Shown here in pieces: positions 254-63,867 of a DNA stretch of 64,000 nucleotides. The position numbers and the translations under genes were made by a program. A model generated the notes under the pieces. That model was not told the DNA's origin, searched no databases, and worked only from the letters and a program-made list of their open reading frames with translations. The first letter of the stretch is position 1; each line of letters opens with the position of its first letter. The stretch lies in assembly GCA_018696595.1 (NCBI GenBank), contig JABHQW010000008.1, positions 332,522-396,521 on the forward strand. The letters run 5' to 3'. Source of the DNA: Candidatus Woesearchaeota archaeon (GTDB lineage Archaea; Nanobdellota; Nanobdellia; Woesearchaeales; GW2011-AR9).

Positions 254-706
254 ATGAATTTAATGAATTTGATTGAAAATATAGCTCAACAGTATAACTT
301 AGCACTTGAAAGTCATGATGAGGATGGGGACGTCGAGTATGGTGTGGATGGCACTCAACCAGTCATAGAAATGGCGAAATCTAATGGGTTGGGCGGTGAA
401 GGCGTAGAAGAAGTGCTGAATCTTGAATTGAAATTTGGTTTTATTAATAAAGGGAGTATGGAAAGCCAACCAGTTTCTTTGTCAAGAAAAGGGAATGAAG
501 CATACGTTGTTTTTGGAAGTGATGATACTTGGGAAGTTAAAGGGGATTTCACTCTTCCAAGTGTGTTGTTCTCTCATCTTAATAATGGAGAAGTTCAAGC
601 AAGAGATTATTTGCTAAGTGTAGGAAGTAAGAGTGGAGACTTGTATACTGTTGATTTGAATAAAGTTAAAGAAACAGGTGAGAAGTTAATAGATTATTTT
701 ATATGA
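254..706 (+). CDS. Hypothetical protein, 150 aa
   Basis: The ATG lies just behind a GAGGTGG ribosome-binding site (about 243-249), which fixes the start, although a second Met lies three codons on. The protein is acidic and soluble, with no signal peptide or membrane segment. Alternating polar and hydrophobic stretches suggest a mixed alpha/beta fold. I do not recognise a family. It follows the partial zinc-domain gene by about 40 bases and converges on lspA, overlapping its end by about 13 bases. Confidence 0.7.
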   Translation: MNLMNLIENIAQQYNLALESHDEDGDVEYGVDGTQPVIEMAKSNGLGGEGVEEVLNLELKFGFINKGSMESQPVSLSRKGNEAYVVFGSDDTWEVKGDFTLPSVLFSHLNNGEVQARDYLLSVGSKSGDLYTVDLNKVKETGEKLIDYFI

Positions 707-1176
707 TGTCTGTTTTTCTTTTTTTCTTTTAATTCTTCTTTAATACTATAAATGACCAACCCAACTACCGCAATTGATAAAGCAGAATCTGCAATGTTAA
801 AAGCAGGCCAGAAACTAAGATTGATGAAATCAATTACATAACCTCTAAAAAATCGGTCTAACAAATTTCCAACTACTCCTCCTAAAAATACAGCAAATAG
901 TATTTGAGGTATTTTTTCTGTTGGTATTTTCTTATAGTAAACAATAACCAATACCGCAACCATAAGAGAAACAATTCCTAGTAACAAAGCATTATCTTTC
1001 AGTATCCCAAATCCTGCTCCAGTGTTTTTGATAAAAGTTATTTTTAGATATCTAAACCCAAAATAAGGTTGAAACTTCAAAACTAAATATTTAGTTAATT
1101 GATCTAAAATTACTACCACAATAGCAATTAATGAGAATAAGAACTCTTTTTTTTGAAAAAATGTTTTCTTTACCAT
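694..1176 (-). CDS. lspA: Lipoprotein signal peptidase II (LspA)
   Basis: This 160-aa protein with four hydrophobic segments matches bacterial signal peptidase II in length and motifs. It has LDQLTKYLV near residues 24-32, NTGAGFG at 51-57, GNLLDR at 103-108, VIDF with Asp116, and FNIADS with Asp130. Asp116 and Asp130 correspond to the catalytic aspartyl dyad. The enzyme cleaves the signal peptide of diacylglyceryl-modified prolipoproteins just before the lipidated cysteine. Its ATG overlaps the stop of the upstream gene, so the two are translationally coupled. LspA is a bacterial hallmark and not expected in an archaeon. Lgt and five lipobox proteins in the same window support a real function. 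Assignment is strong; origin by transfer from bacteria is inferred. Confidence 0.93.
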   Translation of the reverse strand: MVKKTFFQKKEFLFSLIAIVVVILDQLTKYLVLKFQPYFGFRYLKITFIKNTGAGFGILKDNALLLGIVSLMVAVLVIVYYKKIPTEKIPQILFAVFLGGVVGNLLDRFFRGYVIDFINLSFWPAFNIADSALSIAVVGLVIYSIKEELKEKKKNRHHIK

Positions 1177-5940: not shown

Positions 5941-5954
5941 TTTGATAATCCGTT

Positions 5955-6395
5955 TTAATCTACTTTATCTTCTAACGCTTCATCTAAAAGATGAAAACTA
6001 AATGGTTTTCCAACAATTTCTACGCTCTCGAGGTTATTTTCTCCAAAAAATGCTTCGTTGTATCTTGAAGCTAAGGTAGTTGTAACTACAACCTTACCAG
6101 AATATTCAGAACTGGAAATTGCATCTAAATATCTTTTAACAAATATTTCTGTTACATCCCCTTGACGAAAAGCTTCAGCATTAAGAACGGCAGCATTATA
6201 ATTCCCTGCAGTTAATATTCCTACTAAATCTGTTTCATTAGCAAATGTTAAGATCTCTTTATCTTTATTTATTGGATTAGAACCAAAAATACTTTCTTCT
6301 GGTAGGTATAAATTAACTTGATGCCCTATTTGGGATAGATGTCTTTCAGTTAACTCTCTATGTAATGGGTTTTCTTCAACGTATAATATTTTCAT
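5955..6395 (-). CDS. Degenerate response-regulator receiver domain protein, 146 aa
   Basis: Single receiver-like (CheY-fold) protein. It keeps acidic residues Glu7/Glu8 after beta-1 (ILYVEENP), a Thr cluster at 104-106 (VVVTTTLA) and the Lys-Pro-Phe at 130-132 that closes the phosphorylation pocket. At the position of the phosphoacceptor Asp it has Asn72 (NAAVLNAEAF), and the acid pocket is Glu-Glu rather than Asp-Asp. It is therefore probably a pseudo-receiver that works without phosphorylation by a histidine kinase. No output domain is attached and no kinase is seen nearby. It is convergent with the stalk protein gene. Confidence 0.75.
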   Translation of the reverse strand: MKILYVEENPLHRELTERHLSQIGHQVNLYLPEESIFGSNPINKDKEILTFANETDLVGILTAGNYNAAVLNAEAFRQGDVTEIFVKRYLDAISSSEYSGKVVVTTTLASRYNEAFFGENNLESVEIVGKPFSFHLLDEALEDKVD

Positions 6396-8791: not shown

Positions 8792-9070
8792 ATGTTAAAA
8801 ATGAAAAAAGTATCTGAAACTTACGATTTAAGAGTGTTTACCGATACAGGAGATTATTTTGGGGATGTTGAAGATAGTATCATCAACTCAAACAAAGTTT
8901 CTGGTTGGAAAATTAAAGCTACAAAAAATTCTTTCTTAAGCAGAGTTTTGGGAAGTGCTAAAGGAGTTATTGTTCCGCACCAGTTAGTTAAAGCTGTTGG
9001 CGACATTTTAATAATTTCTAAGAATGCTGTTCCTAGTGGCGCGATGGATGATAGTGAAGACGCAGAATGA
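8792..9070 (+). CDS. PRC-barrel domain protein
   Basis: About 92 aa. A small beta-barrel domain is built around VFTDTGDYFGDVED, GWKIKATKNSFL and KGVIVPHQLVKAVGDILII, then a short acidic tail. Archaeal proteins of this type include haloarchaeal CdpB proteins, which link SepF to the cell-division machinery. Others bind RNA or membranes, so a division role here is only suggested. The ATG follows a GAGGTGG ribosome-binding site by 8 bases; an upstream in-frame GTG overlaps that site and is rejected. A second PRC-barrel gene lies at 54403. Confidence 0.85.
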   Translation: MLKMKKVSETYDLRVFTDTGDYFGDVEDSIINSNKVSGWKIKATKNSFLSRVLGSAKGVIVPHQLVKAVGDILIISKNAVPSGAMDDSEDAE

Positions 9071-9162
9071 AGGTAGAAAAGTTTTATTTTGATTTACTTA
9101 ATTATCAATTTGTTCAAGGTAATCATGAGGACCTTGAATTCTTTACTTTTATTGCTGCTTAA
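9067..9162 (+). CDS. Possible 31-aa coupled ORF
   Basis: An ATG overlaps the stop of the PRC-barrel gene as ATGA and opens a 31-codon frame (MKVEKFYFDLLNYQ...). The overlap is the normal coupling arrangement in this genome. However, a perfect 8-bp hairpin lies within it (9113-9138), so the frame may simply be 3' untranslated sequence with a terminator. No family is recognisable at this length. Confidence 0.25.
   Translation: MKVEKFYFDLLNYQFVQGNHEDLEFFTFIAA
9113..9138. terminator. Hairpin after the PRC-barrel gene
   Basis: TTCAAGGT and ACCTTGAA form a perfect 8-bp stem around a 10-base loop, followed by a T-rich stretch. It may act in termination or 3'-end stability before the antiporter promoter. 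Confidence 0.4.
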
Positions 9163-9182
9163 TTCTTCTTCATTTTTCCGTA

Positions 9183-9193
9183 ATATATATAAA
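9183..9193 (+). promoter_or_regulatory. TATA box of the antiporter gene
   Basis: ATATATATAAAG-type box about 28 bases upstream of the ATG at 9216; predicts a leaderless or near-leaderless transcript. Confidence 0.55.
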
Positions 9194-9215
9194 GCAATAA
9201 TGACTTTCTAGGACT

Positions 9216-10547
9216 ATGGATGTGGTAACGTTAATTTTATTGGCAATTAGCCTAATTCTATTTTTTGGTTTCTTTGCAGAATGGTTTTTCCGTAAATTTA
9301 GTGTTCCAGACGTTTTATTCTTAATTATTCTTGGTTTTATCTTAGGTCCTTTTTCCTTAGGATATGTGACCCCTGCTAATCTAGCAGACATTGCACCCGT
9401 ATTTACAACGTTTACGTTAGTATTCTTATTGTTTGATGGTGCGTTTAACATAAACTTAACTTCTTTAATCAAAGAATTTTCTCACAGTTTTGTTTTAACA
9501 ATTTTTAATTTCATAATCTCTTCAGTAATTGTGGCATTAATTTTATGGCTGTTTGGTTTCTGGGTTGGTGGGATTTCAATTTTACTCTCACTTTTAGGTG
9601 GATTTCTTTTGGGAGGGGTCTCTTCTTCGTTTGTAATCCCCATTTTAAAACAAGTTAAAGTTGGAGAAAAGTTATATTCTTTATTAGCGTTAGAATCTGC
9701 ATTAACAGATGTTTTTTGTATTGTTTTTTCATTAACTGTTATTGAAATATTTCAATTAGGTGGTTTTGGATTACAAGAAACATTGGTACAATTAGTAAGT
9801 TTATTTGCAGTTGCTGGTTTAGTTGGATTAATAGGTGGAGTTATCTGGATTTTCTTAATTTTAAAAGTATTCAAAGAACACAATTATATGATCGCTATTG
9901 CCTACTTACTTTTAATTTATGTTATTACAGAATTCCTTAGTGGTAATGGTGCAATCGCAGCATTATTCTTTGGATTGATTTTAAAGAATTCTAAACAGTT
10001 GTCTTCAATTATTCGGGGATTATTAAGTAGTAAAGCTAAAGATAAAAAGAAAGCTCTTGAAGGTGAACTGGGCGTGTCTGTAACAACTCCAAGCGAAGAA
10101 TATTTTTATCATCAAATTTCTTTTTTCCTAAAAACATTTTTCTTTGTTTACATTGGAATTATGATTGATATTTCTGATTGGAAAGCGTTAGTTATTGGAA
10201 TAGTATTATCCTTTGTTTTAATGGGTACCAGAATGGCTTCATTATTACTCACTAAAAGAATGGACGACACTCATAGGACTTTAGTTAACGCAATTTTTGC
10301 TCGTGGTTTAGCAGCAGCAGCGATTGCTCAACTGGCAATAAATGCTGGAATCCCTCATGCGTTCTTCTTATCTAAGATTGCTTACGTGGCTATTACTGGA
10401 ACAATTGTGTTGAGCTCAGTTCGAGTATTCTTAATTAAAAGAAAAATGCCTCCTGCAGAAGAAGAAGGGGAAACCCTTATTGAAAGAAGAATTGAAAGAG
10501 CTGAAGGGAAAAAACACAAACATAAAAGAAAACATAGGCATAAATAA
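9216..10547 (+). CDS. Cation:proton antiporter (CPA family)
   Basis: 443 aa with 11-13 hydrophobic helices and the features of Na+/H+ exchangers. It has an N-terminal region with FGFFAEWFFRKFSVPDVLFL, a conserved GGVSSSFVIPIL helix, and LALESALTDVFCIVFSLT around residues 160-178, whose acidic residues correspond to the ion-binding site. A cytoplasmic tail rich in Lys, His and Arg (KKHKHKRKHRHK) ends the protein and may sense pH or bind acidic lipids. It exchanges protons with Na+ or K+ across the cell membrane. Followed by mscS, which together suggests an ion and osmotic homeostasis pair. Confidence 0.88.
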   Translation: MDVVTLILLAISLILFFGFFAEWFFRKFSVPDVLFLIILGFILGPFSLGYVTPANLADIAPVFTTFTLVFLLFDGAFNINLTSLIKEFSHSFVLTIFNFIISSVIVALILWLFGFWVGGISILLSLLGGFLLGGVSSSFVIPILKQVKVGEKLYSLLALESALTDVFCIVFSLTVIEIFQLGGFGLQETLVQLVSLFAVAGLVGLIGGVIWIFLILKVFKEHNYMIAIAYLLLIYVITEFLSGNGAIAALFFGLILKNSKQLSSIIRGLLSSKAKDKKKALEGELGVSVTTPSEEYFYHQISFFLKTFFFVYIGIMIDISDWKALVIGIVLSFVLMGTRMASLLLTKRMDDTHRTLVNAIFARGLAAAAIAQLAINAGIPHAFFLSKIAYVAITGTIVLSSVRVFLIKRKMPPAEEEGETLIERRIERAEGKKHKHKRKHRHK

Positions 10548-15070: not shown

Positions 15071-15967
15071 TTATTCAACACTCTCTTTGATTCTTAGAGT
15101 TTCCTGAATAATGTCTCTGTATTTGTAAGAAATTGTTAACCCTAACTGCTTAGTTGCTAAAGTTCCTTCTGGTAACGCTTCTTTTAACTTACAGATTATT
15201 TCTGCTTCGCCGTTAATTAAACGAGCTTCTCCCAACTTGCCACCTTGTTTACATTCCCAATTAATATCATCAATAGCGTAAGCCACTCTTTCCTGAACTC
15301 CAAAGTCGTCTCCTGGCTTAGTTACTTTACCACTGCCAACATTACTTACTTTAATCTTCAAAGCCATAATACCTTTACCAGCAGTACTTTCTTCCACACT
15401 AGTAATTGTAATTGGTGCACCAGAAACAAAATAAGTTTTTGCTCCATCTATTGTACAAACACGGTCGTCAGTTAAATCTTCTTTTAAACAAACTTCCGGA
15501 ACGATCAAATAAGTTTCATAATTGTAATCAAAGTTTGCAAACCATTCTCTGTCAATAGCTCCATTAACTGGTTGACTATATTTTGCATCTGAAGAAAATG
15601 TTAAAGTTTCTTCTCCACCGATAGTTAAAAGTTCAGAAACAGTTTCAATTGTTCCAGCATTTTTTAATGCTAGTGAAGGAATTCCTGTGAAGTCCATAGA
15701 AGGTCCTTTTAATTCCACAGTAATGTCTCCTGGTTGAATCTCATATTCTCCTTTGTTGTTCAGAGTAACTTCAATAGGAATTGTTTCTGCATCAAAAATA
15801 CTATAAACTCCGTCTTCTACAACTCCGAATGGTTCGAAGGTAGCCATTATTCCTTGTGTTCCGCCAATGAATGCTCCACTACCTGCTGTTGTAGTTGTGT
15901 CTTCACCATCACATCCTACTAATAGAATTGCACTAATCAATAAAATTGCTAAAATTATTCGTTTCAT
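15071..15967 (-). CDS. Predicted lipoprotein, 298 aa
   Basis: The N-terminus has a lysine/arginine pair, a hydrophobic stretch and a lipobox LVGC with Cys19, followed by DGED. This predicts lipidation by Lgt and cleavage by LspA, both encoded in this window. The mature part is beta-rich with Ig-like or CARDB-like segments (VTLNNKGEYEIQPGDITVEL; LKIKVSNVGSGKVTKPGDDF) and four Cys. The gene at 16249 encodes a similarly organised lipoprotein with matching 'NNKG/NVGSGKV' versus 'HNKGND/NNGGGRV' patterns, so the two are probably paralogues. A GAGGT ribosome-binding site precedes the ATG. Function unknown; surface-exposed by inference. Confidence 0.8.
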   Translation of the reverse strand: MKRIILAILLISAILLVGCDGEDTTTTAGSGAFIGGTQGIMATFEPFGVVEDGVYSIFDAETIPIEVTLNNKGEYEIQPGDITVELKGPSMDFTGIPSLALKNAGTIETVSELLTIGGEETLTFSSDAKYSQPVNGAIDREWFANFDYNYETYLIVPEVCLKEDLTDDRVCTIDGAKTYFVSGAPITITSVEESTAGKGIMALKIKVSNVGSGKVTKPGDDFGVQERVAYAIDDINWECKQGGKLGEARLINGEAEIICKLKEALPEGTLATKQLGLTISYKYRDIIQETLRIKESVE

Positions 15968-16248: not shown

Positions 16249-17217
16249 TCATTGTCCTAGTGGTGAAGCAACAATTTTAAGCGGTTGAGTATAAGAGTCA
16301 ATGTAAGAATAATCAAATTTTACTTGTAAAATTGTTTCATAAGCGTTACTATTGCCAATGTTGTTAGAAGTACAAACAATCTTGCCCTGGTTATTTGTTA
16401 AACGAACTTTATGATTTAATGGTTTACAGTTTAATGGTGATCCATCATTTAGTGAAACTTCAAACTCAACCACATCTAAATCTTTATATTCTAAAGATGC
16501 GCCACCACAATTTTGAATGTTTGCCCCATAATCTAAAACTCGGCCACCGCCGTTATTAACAACATTAATTTCAAAGATGGCTTTATCTCCAATCATATCT
16601 ACGCCGACATAACTTACTCCTACTGGTGCTCCTTGGCCGCCGCCCATTCCTACATCGTGTGGGATACAAGCTTTCTGTTCAGAAGTGATTTGATAAAATA
16701 AAGGATCAATACAAACTTGCGGATTCGCAGTTGTAGTGTAACGATAACAAGTTAAAAAGTTTAATACTGGATTATATTCAAAAACATCTGTTGGTAAGTT
16801 TACGTTTGGTGAGGTGAACTGAATCACATTAGTTGCTCCTAATGTATTATATACATTTTTTCCTTCCAAAACACCCATGTTTGCAGCACAAGGGATACTA
16901 TTTGTAAAACTTCCACTGATTATACTTTTATCAAATCCCGTAACTTGAATATAACAATCAGGAATTTCAATATCATCATTTCCTTTATTGTGAACTTCAA
17001 CCATTGCAATTAATTCATTATCATCATAAATTAAAGCAGGGGGTTGATTTTGAATAATTTGAATTTCTACTCCTTGTGTTCCAGTTTGAACTGCTGTTAA
17101 TGCTGCAGCAGTATCTTGTGGTTTTTCTCCTGCTGGAATCGCGCCACCACAAGAACTAAGAAATAAAGCTAGAATCACTAGTACTGAACATAACGTTAAA
17201 CTCACACTCTTTTTCAT
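16249..17217 (-). CDS. Predicted lipoprotein, 322 aa
   Basis: The ATG at 17217 gives MKKSVSLTL... with a hydrophobic core and the lipobox LSSC (Cys23) followed by GG. A longer reading frame running upstream passes through the hairpin element and promoter and is rejected. The mature protein has several Cys and two NNGG/HNKG-type segments that look like Ig- or CARDB-like beta sandwiches, similar to the lipoprotein at 15071. It is flanked on both sides by copies of the hairpin element. Expected to be anchored to the outer face of a membrane by Lgt/LspA processing. Confidence 0.82.
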   Translation of the reverse strand: MKKSVSLTLCSVLVILALFLSSCGGAIPAGEKPQDTAAALTAVQTGTQGVEIQIIQNQPPALIYDDNELIAMVEVHNKGNDDIEIPDCYIQVTGFDKSIISGSFTNSIPCAANMGVLEGKNVYNTLGATNVIQFTSPNVNLPTDVFEYNPVLNFLTCYRYTTTANPQVCIDPLFYQITSEQKACIPHDVGMGGGQGAPVGVSYVGVDMIGDKAIFEINVVNNGGGRVLDYGANIQNCGGASLEYKDLDVVEFEVSLNDGSPLNCKPLNHKVRLTNNQGKIVCTSNNIGNSNAYETILQVKFDYSYIDSYTQPLKIVASPLGQ

Positions 17218-40560: not shown

Positions 40561-41664
40561 ATGGAAATAGCAATAATTGGGGCTGGTCCAATCGGCAGTT
40601 ACGCTGGTTATTTACTAGCTAAGTCTGGACATAATGTTAATATTTATGAGCGGAAGAAAGAGATTGGTAAGCCCGTTCAATGTACTGGCATATTTACTTC
40701 TGACTTTGATGGATTTTCTTTTCTAAACAAAAATAAATTTTTAGTTAATACTATTAATAAAACGGAAATCAATTTTCCTAATGGTAGCAAGATTGCTGTT
40801 AATCAGAAAGAATATGTGGTTTGCAGAACTAAGTTTGATAACCACTTAGCTAATCTGGCTGTTACTGAAGGAGCAAAAATTTTCTTGCAACATTCATTTA
40901 TTAGGAAAGAAGGTGAGAATCTAGTTGTTAAAGATCTTGCTAATGATTGTGAAAAAGAAATTAAACCAAACATAGTAATCGCTGCAGATGGCCCCTTATC
41001 AAGCGTAGCAAAAGCTTATGGTTTCTATCATCATCAGAGACAACACAATTATGGTGTGCAGGCTTTAGTGGGGGGGAACTTTGATTCTAATACAGTACAA
41101 ACGTTCTTTGGTAAAGATATTGCTCCTGGTGTGTTTGTTTGGGTTGTTCCTGAGAGTTCAACCATGGCGAGAGTTGGTTTAGCTACAGAAAAAGATGCCC
41201 GTAAATACTTTGAGAAATTTGTTCAGAATAAAGATTATGAACTCTTAGAAATGCAGGCAGGTACAATTCCTATCTATCATCCTTCACAAGAATTGGTTAA
41301 AGATAGCTGTTATTTGCTTGGAGATGCTGCTGGGTTCGTTAAAGCGACTACTCTTGGTGGTGTAATTCCTGGAATGAAACAGGCGGAAGCTTTAGTTAGA
41401 TGTTTAAATGATTCTGATTTGGATTATGAAGAAGAGCTTCAACCCATCATTAGTAGGCTCAAGTTACATCTGAAAATTAGAAAAGTTCATGATCGGTTTA
41501 GTGGAGAAGATTGGGAAAAGTTAGCTACTTATTCTAATAATCCTAAAGTTTTGAAATTATTGAACACTTATACACGGGAGAATGTAACTACGTTATTTAG
41601 AAAGATTATTTGGGCAGAGCCAAGAATGTTATATTTTAGTAAGTATTTAGGCGAATTTCTTTAA
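40561..41664 (+). CDS. Geranylgeranyl reductase family FAD-dependent oxidoreductase
   Basis: 367 aa. The N-terminal FAD-binding motif is IIGAGPIGSYAGYLLAKSG, followed by ERKKEIGKPVQCTGIF with the family's Cys near residue 47. The central VPESSTMARVGLA and the second FAD motif YLLGDAAGFVKATTLGG are present. Enzymes of this family saturate the isoprenoid chains of archaeal ether lipids (digeranylgeranylglycerophospholipid reductase) or related prenyl groups. The exact substrate is not certain. Presence of this gene argues that the cell handles isoprenoid lipids. It overlaps the convergent gene at 41647 by 18 bases. Confidence 0.88.
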   Translation: MEIAIIGAGPIGSYAGYLLAKSGHNVNIYERKKEIGKPVQCTGIFTSDFDGFSFLNKNKFLVNTINKTEINFPNGSKIAVNQKEYVVCRTKFDNHLANLAVTEGAKIFLQHSFIRKEGENLVVKDLANDCEKEIKPNIVIAADGPLSSVAKAYGFYHHQRQHNYGVQALVGGNFDSNTVQTFFGKDIAPGVFVWVVPESSTMARVGLATEKDARKYFEKFVQNKDYELLEMQAGTIPIYHPSQELVKDSCYLLGDAAGFVKATTLGGVIPGMKQAEALVRCLNDSDLDYEEELQPIISRLKLHLKIRKVHDRFSGEDWEKLATYSNNPKVLKLLNTYTRENVTTLFRKIIWAEPRMLYFSKYLGEFL

Positions 41665-48792: not shown

Positions 48793-50556
48793 ATGAAGAA
48801 AAGAATAGCTATAATCGATAAGGAGAAATGTCATCCTAGTGAATGTGGAGATTATCTTTGTGCTAAATTGTGCCCTGTTAATAGAACTGGAACAGATTGT
48901 GTCTTGCCACATGAAATACATAAAAAAGCAAAGATTGACGAATTACTTTGTACTGGCTGTTCTATTTGCTCAAACAGATGTCCTTATCAAGCAATCCAAA
49001 TTATTAATCTTCCAGAAGCATTAAACAAAGAACCAGTTCATCGGTTCGGAGAGAATGCTTTTGAATTATTTTCTTTACCAACACCAATCTTTGGTCAAGT
49101 TACAGGAATCTTGGGAAAGAATGGTATTGGGAAAACTACTGCTTTACAAATTCTGGCAGGATTATTAAAGCCAAACTTAGGCAACTATGAAAAAGAAACT
49201 GATTTTAAGGATGTTATCAATTATTTCAAAGGCAGTGAGACTCAGAAATTCTTAATGAAAATGCATGTTGGCGATATCAAATTATCTTACAAATTGCAAC
49301 AAGTTGATTTGATTGCTAAACAGTTTACTGGAACCGTTCGTGAGTTATTAGAAAAAGTTGATGAAAAAAAACAATTAAATGAAGTTGCTCAAGAATTACA
49401 ATTAACAAGATTCTTAGATACTCCAGTTAACAAAATTTCTGGTGGAGAATTACAACGAGTAGCAATTGCTGCTTCTGTATTAAAGAAAGCTAACATTTAT
49501 TTCTTTGACGAACCTAGCTCTTATCTTGATATTAAGCAAAGGGTTAACGTTTCTAAATTTATTAGAAATCTAGCAGATGAAGATACTTCAATCATCGTTA
49601 TTGAACACGATTTAATTATTCTTGATTACATGACAGATCTATTGAATTTAATGTACGGGCAAGAATCTGCTTATGGTATTGTTTCTGGGATCAAGAATTC
49701 TAGGGAAGGAATCAATGCTTTCTTGGAAGGTTTTCTGAAAGAAGAAAATATTCGTTTTAGGTCTTATCCTATTAAGTTTGAGAAAGTTCAAGATAGACAA
49801 GTGGGAACTCAACAAAAACTAATTTCTTGGAAACATTTAAGCAAGAAGTTAGGGAACTTTATTTTGGAATCTGAATCTGGAGAATTATATAAAAACGAGA
49901 TTATTGGTGTTTTAGGGGAAAATGGAATTGGTAAAACTAGTTTTGTAAAAGTATTAGCGGGATTAATTAAACCAGACTCTGGCGAGATTGATTCTGAAAT
50001 TAAAGTTGCTTACAAACCTCAATACTTAGAAACTGCTTCAGATGAATTAGTAATGCAATATTTAGATGATGCAGTTCAACAGTATCAAAACCAATTAATT
50101 AAACCATTAGATATGGAAAGATTAATGATGAAAAAATTGTCTGAACTTTCTGGTGGAGAATTACAAAAAGTATCTATTGTTAAATGTCTGAGTGAAGATG
50201 CAGAATTGTTTCTTCTGGATGAGCCTTCTGCTTATCTAGACGTTGAACAACGATTATTAATCTCTAAAGTAATTAAAAGTTTAACTGCAGAAAGAGAGAT
50301 TACTGTTTTAGTGGTAGATCACGATTTAATGTTTTTAGATTATTTGTCTGATCGACTTGCTGTATTTACAGGAGAACCCGCTAAATCTGGTTTATTACAA
50401 GGTCCTTTTGATATGGTTGAAGGAATGAATTTGTTTTTAGAAGAGTTAGGCATTTCATTACGTAGAGATCCAAATTCGCATCGGCCTCGGATTAACAAAG
50501 CCGGAAGTGTAAAGGATCGAGAACAACGTGCAGAAGGAAAGTTGTATTATAACTAA
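48793..50556 (+). CDS. abce1: Ribosome recycling factor ABCE1 (RNase L inhibitor homologue)
   Basis: 587 aa. An N-terminal domain with eight Cys for two 4Fe-4S clusters (CHPSECGDYLCAKLCP; CTGCSICSNRCP) is followed by two ABC ATPase domains. NBD1 has GKNGIGKTT at about 108-116 and ISGGELQRVAIA; NBD2 has GENGIGKTS and LSGGELQKVSI. This is the universal archaeal/eukaryotic enzyme that splits ribosomes after termination. All functional motifs are intact. It converges with the lipid kinase gene, overlapping by four bases. Confidence 0.97.
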   Translation: MKKRIAIIDKEKCHPSECGDYLCAKLCPVNRTGTDCVLPHEIHKKAKIDELLCTGCSICSNRCPYQAIQIINLPEALNKEPVHRFGENAFELFSLPTPIFGQVTGILGKNGIGKTTALQILAGLLKPNLGNYEKETDFKDVINYFKGSETQKFLMKMHVGDIKLSYKLQQVDLIAKQFTGTVRELLEKVDEKKQLNEVAQELQLTRFLDTPVNKISGGELQRVAIAASVLKKANIYFFDEPSSYLDIKQRVNVSKFIRNLADEDTSIIVIEHDLIILDYMTDLLNLMYGQESAYGIVSGIKNSREGINAFLEGFLKEENIRFRSYPIKFEKVQDRQVGTQQKLISWKHLSKKLGNFILESESGELYKNEIIGVLGENGIGKTSFVKVLAGLIKPDSGEIDSEIKVAYKPQYLETASDELVMQYLDDAVQQYQNQLIKPLDMERLMMKKLSELSGGELQKVSIVKCLSEDAELFLLDEPSAYLDVEQRLLISKVIKSLTAEREITVLVVDHDLMFLDYLSDRLAVFTGEPAKSGLLQGPFDMVEGMNLFLEELGISLRRDPNSHRPRINKAGSVKDREQRAEGKLYYN

Positions 50557-51587
50557 GAACTAGTTCTCATTGCATTATAATCTACTAGATTAAGAACATA
50601 ATCAGAAACTTTCCAATTGATTCTTGTAAACTCTCCAAAATGATCTCCACCGGCTTGGGCTGATGCTTCTTTATCAAGAAGTGCAATTTCTACTTCTGGG
50701 GCAACAATCTCAGAAACATCACGATGACGATATTCTCCACTCCAAATACTTTTGGTGTGGGCAACAAATCTTGGGATCATCGAGTAACGATTACCTCCAA
50801 CTGCCCTAATGTGCATTTTCCCTTCTGATCTTGCTTTTTTTGCATAAGGAAAACCCACAAAATTATAACCAAAATAAGGGGTCGTTCCTGCTACTAAAGC
50901 ATGGATTTGATTTTCTTGTAAGAATCTTTCCCCATCTCCAAGAGGAAGCCTCATAAATTCTATGTCTTCTTCAAAAATTTCAGCAAGTTCTGCCCCTTGT
51001 GGAAAACTAATTTCAAATTTTAGTTTTTTACCAAAAAAGATTTCTGTAGCAGAAGAAGGGATTGTGCTAAAGTATCCTACTAAACCGTTCAATGGGCTTT
51101 GTTTGTACTTTTTTAAAATGATTCCATCCCAACCAGCCCCGGTTAACATAGAATAAGTTTTCTCTTTTTCTCCTTGAGGGGTGGTTCCAGTAATCTCAAT
51201 TAACGGGACTTGTATTGTTGGTAATTCATTAACATCTGTTTCTAAAATCATTTCTAATTGTTCTAAATGGTCTTTACCTGCACCTAATTCATAAGAAATA
51301 GCATTACCCGTTCCCAATTTTAATATTGCAAATAATTGTTTGTTAAATGACAAACCTAATTCTTCACATAAAAGAATGAATTTATTACTTTCATATCTGA
51401 TTGTTCCATCTCCTCCTCCAAGAGTAATTACTTGTGGTTTATCCTGTAAAGTTTTTCTTCTAGGATAATTTCCTGAATATATTTTAACTCTATAGTCTTC
51501 AGCAAATCTTTGCTCAATTGCATTAATTATCTTCGGGGTGAATCTTCCAGCTCTTGGATTTAATTTAGCTACTAGGCTTTCTACCAT
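50553..51587 (-). CDS. Diacylglycerol kinase-family lipid kinase
   Basis: 344 aa. The catalytic signature ITLGGGDGTIRYE and the KLGTGNAISYEL motif identify the YegS/DgkB/sphingosine kinase fold. There are no membrane helices, so it acts at the membrane surface. Such kinases phosphorylate diacylglycerol or other lipid alcohols. Its position next to the cupredoxin lipoprotein and Lgt genes, all on the minus strand, is interesting because Lgt consumes phospholipid to make diacylglyceryl-cysteine. A metabolic link is inference. Confidence 0.85.
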   Translation of the reverse strand: MVESLVAKLNPRAGRFTPKIINAIEQRFAEDYRVKIYSGNYPRRKTLQDKPQVITLGGGDGTIRYESNKFILLCEELGLSFNKQLFAILKLGTGNAISYELGAGKDHLEQLEMILETDVNELPTIQVPLIEITGTTPQGEKEKTYSMLTGAGWDGIILKKYKQSPLNGLVGYFSTIPSSATEIFFGKKLKFEISFPQGAELAEIFEEDIEFMRLPLGDGERFLQENQIHALVAGTTPYFGYNFVGFPYAKKARSEGKMHIRAVGGNRYSMIPRFVAHTKSIWSGEYRHRDVSEIVAPEVEIALLDKEASAQAGGDHFGEFTRINWKVSDYVLNLVDYNAMRTSS

Positions 51588-51643: not shown

Positions 51644-52030
51644 TTAAGAAACGATTACGCTACCTTGCATTCCTGGATGGAATTGGCAAAAGTATCTGTA
51701 CTGTCCTGCTTCAGTAAAGGTGTGAGTTAATGATGTTGTTCCAATTGGAAGTTTCTCATCAAAATCACCATTTTCAAAAGTTACTGTATGCGCAGTAGAA
51801 TCTTTGTTAACCCATTCTATAGTGTCACCAACTTTAAGATCTAAATCAATAGGCATGAATTGAGAATTCTCAATTGCTACTTGGTAAACTTCTCCAGTTG
51901 CTACAACTGCAGTATTAGTTTCTTCTACTTCAACTACTTCTTCAACATTATCTTCTACTACTTCTGATCCACAAGCCACTAATAGAAACATAACACTTAA
52001 CAAAGCTATTAACCCTAATATTTTCTTCAT
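51644..52030 (-). CDS. Cupredoxin (plastocyanin-like) lipoprotein, 128 aa
   Basis: The ATG at 52030 follows a GGAGGA ribosome-binding site; a longer upstream frame into lgt is rejected. The lipobox LVAC (Cys20) ends the signal, followed by a Glu/Val-rich linker. The cupredoxin fold carries the type 1 copper ligands His81, Cys115, His118 and Met121 (AHTVTF; YFCQFHPGMQG). It is an electron carrier tethered to the outer face of a membrane. It sits 40 bases downstream of lgt on the same strand, so a substrate lipoprotein is encoded directly with its lipidating enzyme. Confidence 0.92.
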   Translation of the reverse strand: MKKILGLIALLSVMFLLVACGSEVVEDNVEEVVEVEETNTAVVATGEVYQVAIENSQFMPIDLDLKVGDTIEWVNKDSTAHTVTFENGDFDEKLPIGTTSLTHTFTEAGQYRYFCQFHPGMQGSVIVS

Positions 52031-52070: not shown

Positions 52071-52841
52071 TTATTTAAATATCTTTCTCCAATCTTCCTT
52101 ATAAAACTTAACAAAGAGATATAGTGCAACAATTACCATAATCAAACTAAACCATTGGCCAATCGTTAATTTGAACCATAAAACGTCTTCGCGATAGAAA
52201 TCTACTAAGAATCTTCCTAATCCTTCCCAAAAAACGAAGTTCAGAAATATAAACCCTGGCTTAAATGATTTCCAGAATGTTAGCAAGAAAAGCCAACCAG
52301 TAACAATAAATCTTTTCCCTGCTGCGTATAATGTAGATGGGTGCCTACAACCATCATATCCTTTAAACAATACGCACCACTTACCTTGGAATGGTCTACC
52401 AACTAATTCTCCATTAATGAAATTAGCAATTCTTCCCAAAGCTAAAGCAAACAAGGCGGGAATTGACATAGCATCAGCCAATTTCCAGAAATTAAATCTA
52501 TGTTTCTTACAATAAATGTAAGCTGCAACTACAATTCCTACAAATCCACCGTGAAAACTCATCCCTCCTTCCCAAAATTTGAGAAAGTTAAATGGATTTG
52601 ACAAGTAGTAACTTGGTTGCCAAAAAACTTCAAATACTCTTGATCCGATTAATACTCCGACCATCAACCAAAATGCAAAATCCCAGATCTGTTCTTTGTT
52701 TAATTCTAGTTTGCCTTTTTTTCTAAGATAATATAACCAAGCAATAGACAGAAAGAATCCCAGGACATACATTAGCCCGTACCATCTGATTTCTAACGGC
52801 CCTAAGGAAAGTAATGTTGGGTTAAGATTGTGAATGTACAT
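52071..52841 (-). CDS. lgt: Prolipoprotein diacylglyceryl transferase (Lgt)
   Basis: 256 aa with seven or so hydrophobic helices. Lgt motifs are all visible: IRWYGLMYVLGF (Tyr21), MSFHGGF with essential His97, the Lgt signature GRIANFINGELVGRP at 136-150 (Arg137, Asn140), HPSTLY at 167-172, and GRFLVDFYRED. In the last, Arg210 is kept and the usual Glu is Asp214. It transfers a diacylglyceryl group to the lipobox cysteine of preprolipoproteins. Lgt is a bacterial enzyme not normally found in archaea. It lies between two lipoprotein genes, one codirectional downstream and one divergent. Assignment strong. Confidence 0.95.
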   Translation of the reverse strand: MYIHNLNPTLLSLGPLEIRWYGLMYVLGFFLSIAWLYYLRKKGKLELNKEQIWDFAFWLMVGVLIGSRVFEVFWQPSYYLSNPFNFLKFWEGGMSFHGGFVGIVVAAYIYCKKHRFNFWKLADAMSIPALFALALGRIANFINGELVGRPFQGKWCVLFKGYDGCRHPSTLYAAGKRFIVTGWLFLLTFWKSFKPGFIFLNFVFWEGLGRFLVDFYREDVLWFKLTIGQWFSLIMVIVALYLFVKFYKEDWRKIFK

Positions 52842-52933: not shown

Positions 52934-54307
52934 ATGAGAAAACTATGGTTTCTTTCAGTACTACTAATTTCTCTATTTCTATTAAGTGGTTGTACATCTG
53001 TTAAAGACACATTAGGTATGTGTGGCCATTACTGTGTCAACAAAGATTGTGGAACTGAAATAAACAATTGTGGTCAAGAGATTGATTGTGGTGGTTGTAC
53101 TGGTGGACATTCTTGTGAAGATGGTATGTGTGAATTAAATCCAGAAATCAAAGATAGTGACCCCATTCTAGTACGTCCAAAAATAGACCTAAATCTTCTT
53201 TTATCAAATCAAAGAATAACTAATGCCATAGAACTAAATCCTCTAACTACCACAAATAATTATCAGAAAATTTTGAATGAGAAAATAAGTGATCTTGAAG
53301 TTGGAAATACGGCTCATTGGAATAACTTTAGAAGTCAAGCCAATTGGCAAGAAGAGGATCTATTAGAATTATATTTACAAAAAGTTGCTTTTTCTTTATA
53401 TATTGAAGCTAATGCTTTAACTCCTTGGAGTATCCTTGATTATTCGGATGAACACCTCAACTTATTGCTTTCAGATCTGTATGTTGATGATGTTTTAACT
53501 GATGTTCCCATGTACCAAAATGGAGGATATTACAAAGCCAGGAAACAATCTGCATTTAATGGTGACTCTCTAATTGCCTTCAAATATATACAAGAAACGA
53601 AACAACAGTATCCACATCTAAAAGTTAAAACCCATAAAGACTTGCTTGATTTGATTATAATTAGAATGCGTGATGATGAATGGGTCCATTTTGGAAGTGA
53701 AGCAGAAGGATGTTCAGATTTTCCTTCTGAGGTTATGAATTATGATTTTCAATGTTTATTAGATCTTAAGAAAGGAAGTGATCCACTTACTGCTCATTTT
53801 ATATTTGCATTATTACAATCAAATAATATTCCCTCGAAAGAAGTTCCAGTTTATTTGGGTGGACATACCGGAATTATTTATCCAACTCTGGATTTAACTA
53901 TGGAGGGGAATGCTGTTTATTCTGTGTTAAAAAAAGGAATATTGACCACAAACAAATTGCCAATTGATAACACTTATTTGGATCTAAATACTTATCTGAT
54001 TTGGGATCAAGTTCCAACTTGTCAGGCTTTTTATTTTACAACTAACAAAAACGTTTTAGATTACTTCCAATATATTGGCGATCCTCAATGGAATACAGAC
54101 ATTATTACAACTTACTGTTACACATTTATGGGGAATGCGCCAGGAGAATATTTAAGAGAACTAATAAAAACAGGATTTCTTGCTGAAGGTGAGCCTATGA
54201 ACTGTCAAGATACAGATCCTTCTAAGGATAATTATCAAGCTCCTCCATTAACTGAAGAAGAATTAGACTTTTATCTTAATCAGATCGCACAAATAGCAAA
54301 TTGCTAA
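52934..54307 (+). CDS. Predicted lipoprotein with Cys-rich N-terminal segment, 457 aa
   Basis: The lipobox LSGC (Cys20) is followed by a region with nine Cys (CGHYCVNKDCGTEINNCGQE...) resembling short surface-protein modules. The 400-residue remainder is alpha/beta. A segment around PSKEVPVYLGGHTGIIYPTL is faintly transglutaminase-like, but a full Cys-His-Asp set is not evident. A TTTTAAATAC box about 25 bases upstream suggests leaderless expression, divergent from lgt. Expected to be processed by the Lgt/LspA pair; function unknown. Confidence 0.78.
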   Translation: MRKLWFLSVLLISLFLLSGCTSVKDTLGMCGHYCVNKDCGTEINNCGQEIDCGGCTGGHSCEDGMCELNPEIKDSDPILVRPKIDLNLLLSNQRITNAIELNPLTTTNNYQKILNEKISDLEVGNTAHWNNFRSQANWQEEDLLELYLQKVAFSLYIEANALTPWSILDYSDEHLNLLLSDLYVDDVLTDVPMYQNGGYYKARKQSAFNGDSLIAFKYIQETKQQYPHLKVKTHKDLLDLIIIRMRDDEWVHFGSEAEGCSDFPSEVMNYDFQCLLDLKKGSDPLTAHFIFALLQSNNIPSKEVPVYLGGHTGIIYPTLDLTMEGNAVYSVLKKGILTTNKLPIDNTYLDLNTYLIWDQVPTCQAFYFTTNKNVLDYFQYIGDPQWNTDIITTYCYTFMGNAPGEYLRELIKTGFLAEGEPMNCQDTDPSKDNYQAPPLTEEELDFYLNQIAQIANC

Positions 54308-55189: not shown

Positions 55190-56914
55190 ATGACGGCTCA
55201 CCATAAATCAGAAGACTTAAATTTACATTCTTTAAAGGCTATTTCTCCAATTGATGGTAGACATAGATTAATGACCGAACCATTGGCAGATTGGTTCTCA
55301 GAATTTGCATTGTTTAAGTACAGGCTTCATATGGAAGTTGAGTACTTAATTGCATTATCGGAAAATGAACCGTTCAATGCAGTAAGAAATTTCACTTTAG
55401 AAGAAAAAGATTTCTTAAAAGGAATTGTGCGTAACTTTACTTTACAGGATGCACAAGTAATTCAGAACATTGATCGGTTTGGTTATCAAGAAATGAAACC
55501 GACTAACCATGATTGTAAATCTGTAGAATATTTTCTTAAAAGAAAACTTGAAGAAAGTTCATTAACAGATGTAAAAGAATTTGTTCATTTTGGTTTAACT
55601 TCAGAAGATATGAATAATATTGCTCACAATTGTATGATTAATGGAGCATTAAATCAACATTATATCCCAAATTTAGTTTCTTTACTGGATGAATTAAAAG
55701 GACTAGCAGAATCAGAAAAGTCTACCGCTATGTTAAGTAGAACTCATGGCCAACCGGCAACTCCAACAACAGTTGGTAAAGAGATGGCTAATTATCTTGA
55801 CAGATTAAGAAAACAGTTAATCAAACTTAAACAATTTAAATTACCTGCAAAATGTAATGGTGCTGTTGGCAATCATGCTGCCCAATATTTTGCTGCAGGA
55901 GAAGTTAATTGGATGTCTTTTACTGAAAAATTTATCACAGATCTTGGTTTTGAAGCAAATTTAATGAGTACACAAATTGAGTTTCATGATGGTTTAACAG
56001 AATTGTTTAGCATTATGATTAGTATCAATAATATTCTAAAAGATTTAGCGATGGACTTTTGGACTTATATCTCTTTGGGATATTTACAACAACAAAAGAT
56101 TATTCATGAAGTTGGTAGTTCAACAATGCCACATAAGATTAATCCTTGGCGGATGGAAGTTGCTGAAGGTAGTGTAGCAGAAGCAAACGCTAAGTTGATT
56201 GGATTTATCAACAAGTTGCAAGTTTCTAGATTACAAAGAGATTTGTCGGATCATGAAGCACAAAGAGCGATAGGAGTTGGGTTTGCTCATTCTTATTTAG
56301 TAGTTCTACATGTTTTAGAAGAATTAGAAAGATTACAGGTAAATAAGGAAAAAGTTTCTTCTGAACTGAAAGATTTTGGTAGTATTTTAACAGAAGCTGT
56401 TCAGACTTTACTGAGAAAAGAAGGGTACGAACAGCCTTATGAATTAATGAAAGATTTTTCTCGGGGCAGACATTGTACTGTTCAAGAACTGCACACTTTT
56501 GTTGACCAGTTAGATATTAAAGAAGAAACTAAATTGAAACTAAAACAATTAAGACCAGAGAATTATATTGGGTTGAGTAAAGAATTAACAGAGTTAGCAA
56601 TTGGAAAATGGGAAGAGTTCAAAGAAGAATATGAAGAACCGTTACCTGCAGTAAGAAAAGTCTTCTTAGCCCCAGAAGTAAAGAACTTTGAGATTATCGA
56701 AAGATTAAAACAAATGGAGATTGAAGTTCTCGATGAACTTACTGAAGAAAAAGGTATTTTATACATTGGTCCAATCAATGCTCAGTTTGAAGAAGCAAAA
56801 GAGAAAGGCTTTATTTGTGTGAATTACGATCCTAATCGAAAAACTAAGGCTGATTACAACATTGTTGATCTGGCAGAATTGCCAGACTTGATTAATTCTT
56901 TTGGAGGTGACTAA
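55190..56914 (+). CDS. purB: Adenylosuccinate lyase with a C-terminal extension, 574 aa
   Basis: The first 460 residues match the E. coli-type PurB (LKAISPIDGRHR start; SRTHGQPATPTT; catalytic loop signature SSTMPHKINPWRMEVAEG). The enzyme removes fumarate from adenylosuccinate and SAICAR. Beyond the usual end there is an extra region of about 100 residues (from about 480). It has strand-helix alternation (IIERLKQMEIEVLDELTEEK; GILYIGPINAQFEEAKEKGF; YNIVDLAEL) like a small Rossmann-like domain. GGGAG stands nine bases before the ATG. purA begins one base after the stop, so the two AMP-synthesis enzymes form an operon. Confidence 0.93.
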   Translation: MTAHHKSEDLNLHSLKAISPIDGRHRLMTEPLADWFSEFALFKYRLHMEVEYLIALSENEPFNAVRNFTLEEKDFLKGIVRNFTLQDAQVIQNIDRFGYQEMKPTNHDCKSVEYFLKRKLEESSLTDVKEFVHFGLTSEDMNNIAHNCMINGALNQHYIPNLVSLLDELKGLAESEKSTAMLSRTHGQPATPTTVGKEMANYLDRLRKQLIKLKQFKLPAKCNGAVGNHAAQYFAAGEVNWMSFTEKFITDLGFEANLMSTQIEFHDGLTELFSIMISINNILKDLAMDFWTYISLGYLQQQKIIHEVGSSTMPHKINPWRMEVAEGSVAEANAKLIGFINKLQVSRLQRDLSDHEAQRAIGVGFAHSYLVVLHVLEELERLQVNKEKVSSELKDFGSILTEAVQTLLRKEGYEQPYELMKDFSRGRHCTVQELHTFVDQLDIKEETKLKLKQLRPENYIGLSKELTELAIGKWEEFKEEYEEPLPAVRKVFLAPEVKNFEIIERLKQMEIEVLDELTEEKGILYIGPINAQFEEAKEKGFICVNYDPNRKTKADYNIVDLAELPDLINSFGGD

Positions 56915-56915
56915 A

Positions 56916-59177
56916 ATGGGAAACACATTTGCAATTTTAGGTGGACAATGGGGAGACGAAGGTAAAGGAAAATTTGTAGATTGGGCAGCTAAGTATTTTG
57001 ACATTTCTGCGAGAGCCACTGGTGGTAACAATGCAGGACATACTGTTTATGTTGGCGAAGAGAAACATATTTTTCATTTAATCCCTTCTGCAATTACTTG
57101 GAAGAATGTTGATTGTCTTTTAGGAAATGGAATGGTGATTGATCCATTAATTCTGTTAAAAGAAATTGATACTTTAGAACAAAAAGGTTACACTGTTAAT
57201 AATCTTTACATCTCTGGAAGAGCGCATATGATTTTACTTTACAACAAAGTCTTAGACAAATATAAAGAGAAATCAAAAGGAAAAAAGAAAGTTGGCACTA
57301 CGGGAAGAGGTATTGGTCCAACTTATGCTGATAAAGCTTATTATACTGGAATCAGAATGAATGATCTGTTGGATAAAGAGTTGTTAAAAAGAAAAGTTAG
57401 CCTACATGTTTGGGAAAAGTTTGGTTCATTTAAGAAATTACATGAAGATGATGATGAAATAATTATGGGGGCTTTAAGAGATTCTCTTCCTGAAGATACA
57501 TTTTTTGATAAATGGAGAAGTAAACTACTCGATTTGGGAAATAATATTAATCTGAACAAGTTAACAAATTTCTTTGTTGATATTTATTTTTCTGTTGGTA
57601 AAATATTAAAGAAACATATTACAGATACTCGGCTGATGTTAGAATCTAATGCCAAAGATGGTAAAAGTATTCTTTTAGAAGGTGCACAGGGGTTATTGTT
57701 AGATGTTGATCACGGAACTTATCCTTTTGTGACTTCTTCTAACGCTTCCATTGGTGGTTTGAAAACCGGTTTAGGTTTACCGCACTTAGATATTGCTTAT
57801 AGTGTTGTTAAAGCTTATACTACAAGAGTCGGTGAAGGCCCTTTTGCTACAGAACTATTTGATGATGTTGGTAACTATTTAAGAGAAAAAGGTGGCGAGT
57901 TTGGTTCTACTACTGGGAGACCAAGAAGATGTGGTTGGCATGATACTGTTTTAACAAGACATACTGCATTAATTAATGGGCCAAACATTGTTATTAGTAA
58001 ATTGGATGTTTTAACGGGTTTGGAGAAACTTAAAATTTGTAATTCTTACAAATATCTTGGACCTAAGAAAGTTTTTAATGGCGAAATTTACTTCACTGGA
58101 AAAATTTTGAAAGATTTCCCTGCTGATGGGTTTTTGTTAGAACATTGTGTTCCTCATCAATGGGTTGAAATGCCTGGCTGGACTGAAGACATAACTAATG
58201 TTAAAGAATATAGTCTTTTGCCTATTAATGCCCAGAATTATTTACGTAAAATTGAAGAGTTGGGGAATGTTGAAATTAGTTTGGTTAGCATTGGTCCAAA
58301 AAGAGAACAGATGATCGTTATGCCAGGAAGATGGAACTTAGAAGTCAAACAAGAAAAAGTTTCTTCTTCTTCTGTAAGTGAACCTGTAGAACAACCAATA
58401 GAAGAGAGAGAAACATTTGTAGAACCAACTGTTAATGTTGAAACAGAGTCTCAACTAGAAACCAGAACAGAAATTAAAACAGAACCTGAAGAAGACACAA
58501 AAATAAAAGCAATCATTTATGACATGGATAATACTTTAGTTAATACTGATGGCTTTGTACTTGGTCATTTAAGAAGAACGGCATTAAGAGTTTGTCAAGA
58601 CATTCCATTTACAGTTCCAAGTGATGAAGAAATTAAAAGAGTACAAAAAGAAAATCTTCCTTTTGAGGATATCTTTGTAAAACTATTTCCAAATCCGTTG
58701 GGCTATATTCGTGATGAACCATTATCAGGCGTGGTTTTAGCAAAATACCGGGAAGATGCAAAAGAAATTCCTTTTTCTTCAACACTTGGCGGGATAGATC
58801 TTGTTGAAACTATGTCTAAACAAGAAGTTGTTCAAGGAATTGTGACAAACCGAGTTCGGATGGCTCGTCATCGGTTAGATCAAGCTGGTTATAGTGATTT
58901 TTCTTTTATTGTTCAACCAGAATCTAAAGAACAGAGTAAACCAAATCCTCTTTGTTTAAGACCAGCGTTAGACTTTTTGCAAGAGAAGAATATTTCTAAG
59001 TCTGAGGTTCTTTCTGTCGGCGATCATCCTGACGATTATCTTGCTGCAAGAGATGCAGGAATTACATTCATTGCTGTTTTAACTGGAGAAAGCACCAAAG
59101 GAGATTTTATTAGTGCGGGTTTAGATGCAAATATGATTGTTGATGATCTTGGAGAATTGAAAGAAATAATAAATTAA
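56916..59177 (+). CDS. purA: Adenylosuccinate synthetase fused to a HAD-family hydrolase, 753 aa
   Basis: Residues 1 to about 475 form a full PurA (GGQWGDEGKGK P-loop, NAGHTVY, GTTGRGIGPTYADK, EGAQGLLLDVDHGTYPF, TTGRPRRCGWHD). A Glu/Val/Thr-rich linker of about 50 residues follows. Then a HAD phosphatase has motif I DMDNTLVN (Asp536, Asp538), motif II TNR, motif III Lys675 in SKPNP and motif IV GDHPDD near 703. The ATG follows GGAGGTGA; an upstream TTG is rejected. PurA joins IMP and aspartate; the HAD part probably dephosphorylates a nucleotide or phosphoglycolate-like compound. The fusion is unusual. Confidence 0.94.
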   Translation: MGNTFAILGGQWGDEGKGKFVDWAAKYFDISARATGGNNAGHTVYVGEEKHIFHLIPSAITWKNVDCLLGNGMVIDPLILLKEIDTLEQKGYTVNNLYISGRAHMILLYNKVLDKYKEKSKGKKKVGTTGRGIGPTYADKAYYTGIRMNDLLDKELLKRKVSLHVWEKFGSFKKLHEDDDEIIMGALRDSLPEDTFFDKWRSKLLDLGNNINLNKLTNFFVDIYFSVGKILKKHITDTRLMLESNAKDGKSILLEGAQGLLLDVDHGTYPFVTSSNASIGGLKTGLGLPHLDIAYSVVKAYTTRVGEGPFATELFDDVGNYLREKGGEFGSTTGRPRRCGWHDTVLTRHTALINGPNIVISKLDVLTGLEKLKICNSYKYLGPKKVFNGEIYFTGKILKDFPADGFLLEHCVPHQWVEMPGWTEDITNVKEYSLLPINAQNYLRKIEELGNVEISLVSIGPKREQMIVMPGRWNLEVKQEKVSSSSVSEPVEQPIEERETFVEPTVNVETESQLETRTEIKTEPEEDTKIKAIIYDMDNTLVNTDGFVLGHLRRTALRVCQDIPFTVPSDEEIKRVQKENLPFEDIFVKLFPNPLGYIRDEPLSGVVLAKYREDAKEIPFSSTLGGIDLVETMSKQEVVQGIVTNRVRMARHRLDQAGYSDFSFIVQPESKEQSKPNPLCLRPALDFLQEKNISKSEVLSVGDHPDDYLAARDAGITFIAVLTGESTKGDFISAGLDANMIVDDLGELKEIIN

Positions 59178-63510: not shown

Positions 63511-63867
63511 ATGAGAAAGGTATTAATTGTTTCGTTGGCTTTGTTAACTGTATTTCTAGTTTCTTGTGGAAATACAGGGAATGGTATAGCTGGGTCAACT
63601 AACTTAGATGCATTTGCAGAATGTTTAGCTGAGAATGGTGCTACTATGTATGGTGCAGAATGGTGTAGTCATTGTAAAGATCAAAAAGCAATGTTTGGAA
63701 GTTCTTTCAAGAATGTAGATTATGTTGAATGTACTGTTGAACAACAAAAATGTGTGGAATCTGGCATTTCGGGTTATCCTAGTTGGGTGTTTTCCGATGG
63801 GACCATTTTAGCAGGAGTACAACAATTCTCAACATTGGCAAAGAAGACGGGTTGTGTTTTGAACTGA
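63511..63867 (+). CDS. Thioredoxin-fold lipoprotein, 118 aa
   Basis: The lipobox LVSC (Cys19) ends the signal peptide. The mature part has ENGATMYGAEWCSHCKDQKA with redox pair Cys52/Cys55, a further Cys pair (CTVEQQKC) and the cis-Pro loop SGYPSWVF. This closely resembles the thioredoxin domain attached to plant and cyanobacterial VKOR proteins, which oxidise or isomerise extracytoplasmic disulfides. It is tethered outside the membrane, so it cannot be a direct substrate of cytosolic TrxB unless electrons cross the membrane. No VKOR gene is in the window. Confidence 0.88.
   Translation: MRKVLIVSLALLTVFLVSCGNTGNGIAGSTNLDAFAECLAENGATMYGAEWCSHCKDQKAMFGSSFKNVDYVECTVEQQKCVESGISGYPSWVFSDGTILAGVQQFSTLAKKTGCVLN

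Follow-up and report, generated by a model that had tools for sequence, protein, structure and literature searches.

The question raised by this locus is whether a bacterial-type prolipoprotein diacylglyceryl transferase (Lgt) can be native to an archaeon and, if so, which lipid it would transfer. The window analysed, a 64,000-nt stretch of DNA from Candidatus Woesearchaeota archaeon (GCA_018696595.1, contig JABHQW010000008.1, 332,522-396,521, forward strand), carries a gene that an earlier note had read as lgt, on the premise that archaea generally lack this enzyme and that haloarchaeal lipoproteins are made by unrelated ones. Both parts of the premise agree with the literature: Lgt has been described as 'absent from archaea' (PMC13251419, 2026), a second paper (PMC12186497, 2025) says that homologues of bacterial lipoprotein biogenesis components had not been identified in archaea, and the AliA and AliB proteins that it describes in Haloferax are reported to be non-homologous to the bacterial enzymes (PMC13251419, PMC12186497). 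The open reading frame was found exactly where it had been placed, on the minus strand, a detail that the note had not given.

52071..52841, minus strand: lgt, 256 aa, prolipoprotein diacylglyceryl (here probably diradylglyceryl) transferase, assigned by TIGR00544, Pfam LGT and a structural model

The full-length protein exceeded the curated cutoffs of both families, scoring 218.8 bits against Pfam LGT (PF01790; cutoff 24.9, E 8.6e-65) and 182.3 bits against the NCBIfam lgt equivalog TIGR00544 (curated cutoff 118.9). The motifs SFHGG (residues 95-99), GRIANFINGELVGRP (136-150) and GRFLVDF, the last containing R210 and D214, were all present in the 256-aa reading frame, as had been described. 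A sequence search of PDB gave a sole match, E. coli Lgt (5azb/5azc), and when an AlphaFold model (pLDDT 86.8, pTM 0.85; input 18 window and locus sequences) was compared with PDB using Foldseek, the single hit with E <0.001 was again 5azb (E 1e-10, TM 0.73). The TIGR00544 score and the two PDB searches leave little room for the idea that this is an unrelated membrane protein.

The genome itself is 1.19 Mb in length, 97% complete and 0.38% contaminated, and the window lies inside a 428-kb contig with archaeal genes on both sides of lgt (RLI, archaeal GltX, aIF-2, RfcS, aEF-1 beta and NAC), which bears out the earlier description of a clearly archaeal gene set. The G+C content of lgt is 0.349 and that of the window 0.331. 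Lgt was detected in 52 of the 60 nearest relatives. Across the phylum 371 genomes were sampled, and 251 of them had it (199 of the 243 of good quality), genomes consisting of a single contig among them (G046, G092, G113, G116). Copies from Woesearchaeota and Nanoarchaeota MAGs (L002-L006) were 58-82% identical to the window protein. The earlier claim of a bacterial Lgt in an archaeal genome was therefore borne out, but it was drawn too narrowly, as the gene is no isolated oddity: the trait extends across the phylum and comes with LspA and lipobox substrates. Bacillus subtilis is expected to carry lgt. That control went unmatched by PF01790 in the genome search, so that the genome counts are lower bounds and absences are less sure than presences; four cultured control archaea, Haloferax among them, gave no Lgt or LspA match in the same search that missed the B. 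subtilis Lgt. At least two Lgt matches were seen in relatives G117 (six), G005, G034, G059, G014 and G039, possibly paralogues with separate donors or substrates.

Phylogenetic reconstruction placed the window's family in one clade (100/99), nested in an 18-member archaeal clade (99/92). When 24 bacteria were included, 65 of the 71 archaeal sequences grouped together at 90/82, along with a long-branch Phocaeicola sequence, while archaeal family f25 and the divergent L024 were placed elsewhere. The first bacterial sampling, to which six bacteria were later added and from which one long-branch row was removed, gave a free tree that set the archaea between two bacterial groups, although a single clade of archaea remained compatible with the data (AU p 0.21). 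The phylogeny that had been proposed as a check thus put the window's family well within an archaeal clade, but strict monophyly of all archaeal Lgts was not shown. An old acquisition followed by mostly vertical descent fits these trees, in which the bacterial references came from plasmid records, with Patescibacteria and most other phyla outside the sample. The L024 protein (L024:6001-7086), from a Nanoarchaeia MAG, is a 361-aa Lgt with lysine- and asparagine-rich inserts that fell beside proteobacterial Lgts, and represents either a separate transfer or a divergent form.

Two explanations that would make the gene a bacterial intruder can be weighed against these results. Contamination, or a chimeric contig bearing a bacterial lgt, has in its favour the general rule that archaea have no Lgt, and nothing else; against it stand the length of the contig and its low contamination, the archaeal markers flanking lgt, the G+C content of lgt beside that of the window, the conserved gene neighbourhood of the orthologues in named Woesearchaeota MAGs, and the single-contig genomes (such as G046 and G116), so that it was rejected as having practically no chance of being correct. 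A recent transfer from a particular bacterium could be imagined, since Pelagibacteraceae headed the bacterial matches in the genome scan (32-41% identity), but that hit list had been selected by a shared N-terminal search pattern (MYIHNLNP), and in the tree the window's family lay within archaeal sequences and Pelagibacter with other Proteobacteria; a simple recent transfer from Pelagibacter was rejected by the tree and is vanishingly improbable. By all sequence tests the window gene is a true Lgt, of a kind already known, in a true archaeon.

The same window encodes the enzyme that acts after Lgt in the proposed pathway.

694..1176, minus strand: lspA, signal peptidase II, 160 aa, TIGR00077 107.6 bits against a cutoff of 73.95

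Residues D116 and D130 of this LspA presumably form the catalytic dyad. They align with the catalytic aspartate positions of solved LspA structures (6ryo, 9emz, 5dir). Across the 371 genomes, Lgt and LspA were found together in 228, Lgt only in 23, LspA only in 15 and neither in 105 (odds ratio 69), and outside the window's order the corresponding numbers were 58, 9, 3 and 102, all of these being raw counts uncorrected for the relatedness of the genomes. The N-acyltransferase Lnt had no match in the genome itself, and none of 40 relatives scored above the cutoff. Lnt is not universal in bacteria, and many monoderm bacteria do without it.

Candidate substrates were sought by scanning reading frames for a basic start, a hydrophobic stretch and the pattern [LVIMF][ASTVIGLMF][GAS], and then scoring how often the next residue was cysteine. 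In the window's own genome (290 kb scanned) it was cysteine in 7 of 82 cases (8.5%), compared to a background elsewhere in proteins of 23 of 2178 (1.1%; p 6.6e-5), which places lipobox proteins about eightfold above chance. Four other genomes with Lgt gave 9 of 129 (7.0%) against a 0.9% background (p 9.5e-6), one of them, G092, having no lipobox cysteine in 100 kb. Three genomes of other orders, in which neither Lgt nor LspA was detected, gave 1 of 83 (1.2%), the background level. Genome G043 (L155-L159), of the same order as the window, had clear lipobox proteins (cysteine in 3 of 25) with both Lgt and LspA undetected; the genome is perhaps incomplete, or a different enzyme operates there. 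The candidates in the window, together with a lipid kinase near lgt, were as follows.

51644..52030, minus strand: cupredoxin lipoprotein (MKKILGLIALLSVMFLLVAC), lipobox LLVAC, Pfam Cupredoxin_1 4.7e-14
50553..51587, minus strand: DAGK-like lipid kinase, the third gene in what appears to be an lgt run, Pfam DAGK_cat 31.1 bits (cutoff 23.6)
52934..54307, plus strand: putative lipoprotein, lipobox LLSGC, no family match
15071..15967, minus strand: putative lipoprotein, lipobox LLVGC, from the lipobox scan
16249..17217, minus strand: putative lipoprotein from an internal ATG, lipobox FLSSC, from the lipobox scan
63511..63867, plus strand: putative thioredoxin-like lipoprotein, lipobox FLVSC, Pfam Thioredoxin just under cutoff

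The cupredoxin gene starts 40 bp past lgt, preceded by an RBS-like GGAGG, and a cupredoxin gene was present with or near lgt (immediately adjacent or separated by one to a few genes) in 9 of the 11 family relatives with usable flanks. Its lipobox cysteine was invariant in all 10 aligned cupredoxins, and the linker after the cysteine was highly variable. Judged from gene order and motifs, the cupredoxin lipoprotein is a likely substrate of Lgt encoded in the same operon. A DAGK-like gene was also found near lgt in L005, scoring slightly under the Pfam cutoff.

Residues of the active site were mapped by alignment to Klebsiella Lgt, which carries the E. coli numbering, and were compared across 71 archaeal and 29 bacterial Lgts.

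52392..52436, minus strand: Lgt signature motif, residues 136-150 GRIANFINGELVGRP, in which R137 = E. coli R143, N140 = N146, E145 = E151 and G148 = G154
52551..52553, minus strand: H97 codon (= E. coli H103), by alignment
52212..52214, minus strand: R210 codon (= E. coli R239), by alignment
52200..52202, minus strand: D214 codon (= E. coli E243), altered donor-pocket residue, by alignment
52224..52226, minus strand: E206 codon (= E. coli Y235), altered donor-pocket residue, Glu in all 13 sequences of the family
52323..52325, minus strand: A173 codon (= E. coli E202), altered donor-pocket residue, by alignment

The window Lgt keeps Y21, H97, R137, N140, G148, R210, R217, G92/G93 and G136, all equivalents of residues essential in E. 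coli (PMC13251419 and PMC4728403); the essential Y26, H103, R143, N146, G154 and R239 of that enzyme correspond to Y21, H97, R137, N140, G148 and R210. At H103, three archaeal Lgts (L074, L108 [family f82] and L114) have Gln or Tyr, and some bacteria have Tyr, Trp or Phe (PMC13251419). None of the three residues E202, Y235 and E243, which are conserved rather than family-defining, was retained in the window protein (A173, E206 and D214), whereas nearly all bacterial Lgts sampled keep them. Every one of the 13 sequences in the window's family combines Glu at position 235 with Asp at 243, a pairing that no other sequence in the alignment shows; of the 18 members of the archaeal clade around the family, 17 carry Asp at 243, and Tyr 235 has been lost from most members. 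The crystal structure shows a bound lipid whose glycerol end is enclosed by E202, Y235 and R239, with E243 as part of their hydrogen-bond network (PMC4728403). One study found the E. coli enzyme inactive after substitution at two of these sites (Y235F/L/S and E243A/Q/R; PMC4728403), but E243A was functional in a later study (PMC13251419) and E202Q works (PMC4728403). Because the necessity of E243 is disputed and E202Q is active, the three changes do not rule out membership of the Lgt family. The earlier observation that a family Glu is replaced by Asp214 was correct, this being E243, but it captured only part of the picture, as the changes of E202 to A173 and Y235 to E206 had not been listed; as the alignment reads, the Glu-to-Asp substitution is one piece of a wider, lineage-specific change of the donor pocket.

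The puzzle of the lipid donor, which the earlier note had raised, is real, and was sharpened by finding no bacterial phosphatidic-acid acyltransferases. PlsY was detected neither in the genome nor in any of 60 relatives, and PlsC was not detected in the genome. GGGPS was also undetected in this genome, and its sole UbiA protein resembles decaprenyl-phosphate phosphoribosyltransferase rather than DGGGPS, and for these two reasons the cell apparently does not make archaeol lipids de novo, so that any lipid could be taken up. CarS (CDP-archaeol synthase) is present in the genome and in 42 of 60 relatives, and two further genes bear on the donor.

40561..41664, plus strand: geranylgeranyl reductase family protein, candidate for archaeal lipid saturation, TIGR02032 173 bits against a cutoff of 158.8
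L098:5478-6953 (G000:C3), minus strand: fusion of a PgsA-like CDP-alcohol phosphatidyltransferase and a DAGK-type lipid kinase, 491 aa, identified by motifs

The fusion protein has a complete CDP-alcohol motif (D-x2-DG-x2-AR-x8-G-x3-D-x3-D) and, in its lipid kinase part, GGDGS; the PgsA-like protein scored 81 bits, under the curated cutoff of 109, so that its product can be named only tentatively. Many family members have reading frames of 480-530 aa that contain a CDP-alcohol domain, which suggests a conserved PgsA-like/lipid-kinase fusion, putatively serving lipid salvage. Since PlsY, PlsC and GGGPS were not found but CarS, the geranylgeranyl reductase and the fusion were, the donor of Lgt is on balance probably an isoprenoid lipid of the archaetidylglycerol type and not diacyl phosphatidylglycerol. 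Elsewhere in the genomes sampled, L097:1239-4733 encodes a 1164-aa protein in which Fe-alcohol dehydrogenase, cytidylyltransferase, nucleotidyltransferase and 2-aminoethylphosphonate aminotransferase are fused, with CDP-alcohol transferases close by (5506-6156 and 8931-9692), a cluster that looks like one for archaeal phosphonolipid or phosphonate surface decoration. At 56901-59177 (plus strand) the window encodes a fusion of adenylosuccinate synthetase with a HAD-type hydrolase domain.

We are highly confident that a complete native Lgt-LspA pathway is at work in Woesearchaeota and their relatives. The analysis establishes that the protein belongs to the family, keeps its catalytic residues and is predicted to have its fold, that Lgt and LspA occur together, that lipobox proteins are enriched and one of them is syntenic with lgt, and that bacterial acyltransferases went undetected; enzymatic activity, the identity of the donor and the part played by the altered pocket are inferred. 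Precursors that are secreted and bear a lipobox would arrive at the membrane, where Lgt would transfer the diradylglyceryl group of a phosphatidylglycerol-like lipid to the lipobox cysteine with release of glycerol phosphate, and LspA would then cleave ahead of the lipidated cysteine, no Lnt step being expected. The donor would most likely be an archaetidylglycerol-type isoprenoid lipid that the cell builds from diradylglycerol or diradylglycerol phosphate obtained by salvage, by way of the lipid kinase, CarS and the PgsA-like synthase, and the remodelled pocket (E202A, Y235E and E243D in E. coli numbering) may adapt Lgt to it. Taken as a whole, a working Lgt that heads a native Lgt-LspA pathway and uses an archaeal donor through an adapted pocket is the best explanation, and one that we consider likely. 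The fuller proposal, that this lineage of Lgt works on ether-linked isoprenoid donors by means of a rebuilt pocket, in archaea that apparently do not produce core lipids themselves and would therefore anchor proteins with host-derived lipid, is favoured by a small degree only.

Alternatively, the pathway may be real and the donor an ester-linked diacyl phosphatidylglycerol obtained from bacterial or other neighbours or hosts, in cells with mixed or borrowed membranes. With GGGPS and DGGGPS undetected, lipids must be acquired, the catalytic core is the same as that of bacterial Lgt, and the products of the lipid kinase and PgsA-like genes could act on diacylglycerol just as on archaeol. However, CarS, which in known archaea works on archaeal lipid precursors, is present here and in 42 of 60 relatives, the window encodes a geranylgeranyl reductase and neither PlsY nor PlsC was found, and the three pocket residues conserved in nearly all sampled bacteria are altered in the window's family, so that a diacyl donor appears unlikely, at roughly one chance in several. 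Considerably less probable is a protein with the Lgt fold that has taken on another lipid-transfer reaction or lost activity. The three differences in the donor pocket, two of them at positions where replacements were inactivating in one study (PMC4728403), would be compatible with such a change, but the remaining essential residues are kept, and the co-occurrence with LspA, the lipobox enrichment and the adjacent lipobox gene point to the function of Lgt.

The published statement that archaea lack Lgt is contradicted by these findings. It derived from a survey of RefSeq genomes of February 2021, which presumably held few of these uncultivated archaea. A first sighting is not claimed, because coverage of the literature was incomplete and the genes may already have been named by automated annotation; in the literature searched, nothing relevant was found that connected Lgt or prolipoproteins with DPANN or Woesearchaeota. 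What appears to be new is the setting, an archaeal phylum without detectable bacterial acyltransferases, together with the family-specific change of the pocket and the altered donor that it may signify. A whole archaeal phylum with Lgt, LspA and lipobox proteins allows the lipid divide to be tested on one enzyme, by asking whether glycerol-1-phosphate isoprenoid lipids can serve in Lgt chemistry and which residues determine this. For DPANN archaea, in which cell contacts are little understood, it also offers a candidate means of surface anchoring, and it makes the presence of Lgt or LspA an unsafe bacterial marker in metagenome bins. If the fuller proposal is true, a bacterial enzyme makes archaeal-lipid-anchored proteins in archaea that anchor them with host-derived lipid.

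Among known systems, the Lgts of the Woesearchaeota and Nanoarchaeota MAGs (L002-L006) share the Glu/Asp pocket changes and conserved neighbours of the window gene, and differ from it in sequence divergence only; the literature searched contained no account of them. E. coli Lgt (5AZB/5AZC) belongs to the same family and shares the predicted fold and signature motif, and its H103, R143, N146, G154, R239 and R246 all have equivalents in the window protein, but identity in the structural alignment is about 27%, E202, Y235 and E243 are replaced by A173, E206 and D214, and, unlike the E. coli enzyme, the window Lgt is set in an archaeal cell without detectable bacterial acyltransferases. The LspA of Staphylococcus aureus (6RYO) aligns with the window LspA over its length, with both catalytic Asp positions matched, the window LspA differing in that it comes from an archaeal genome and has 160 aa. 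AliA and AliB of Haloferax volcanii are non-homologous to the bacterial enzymes according to the reports cited above, and Haloferax had no Lgt or LspA match in the control searches, but they, too, serve lipobox proteins in an archaeon with archaeal lipids.
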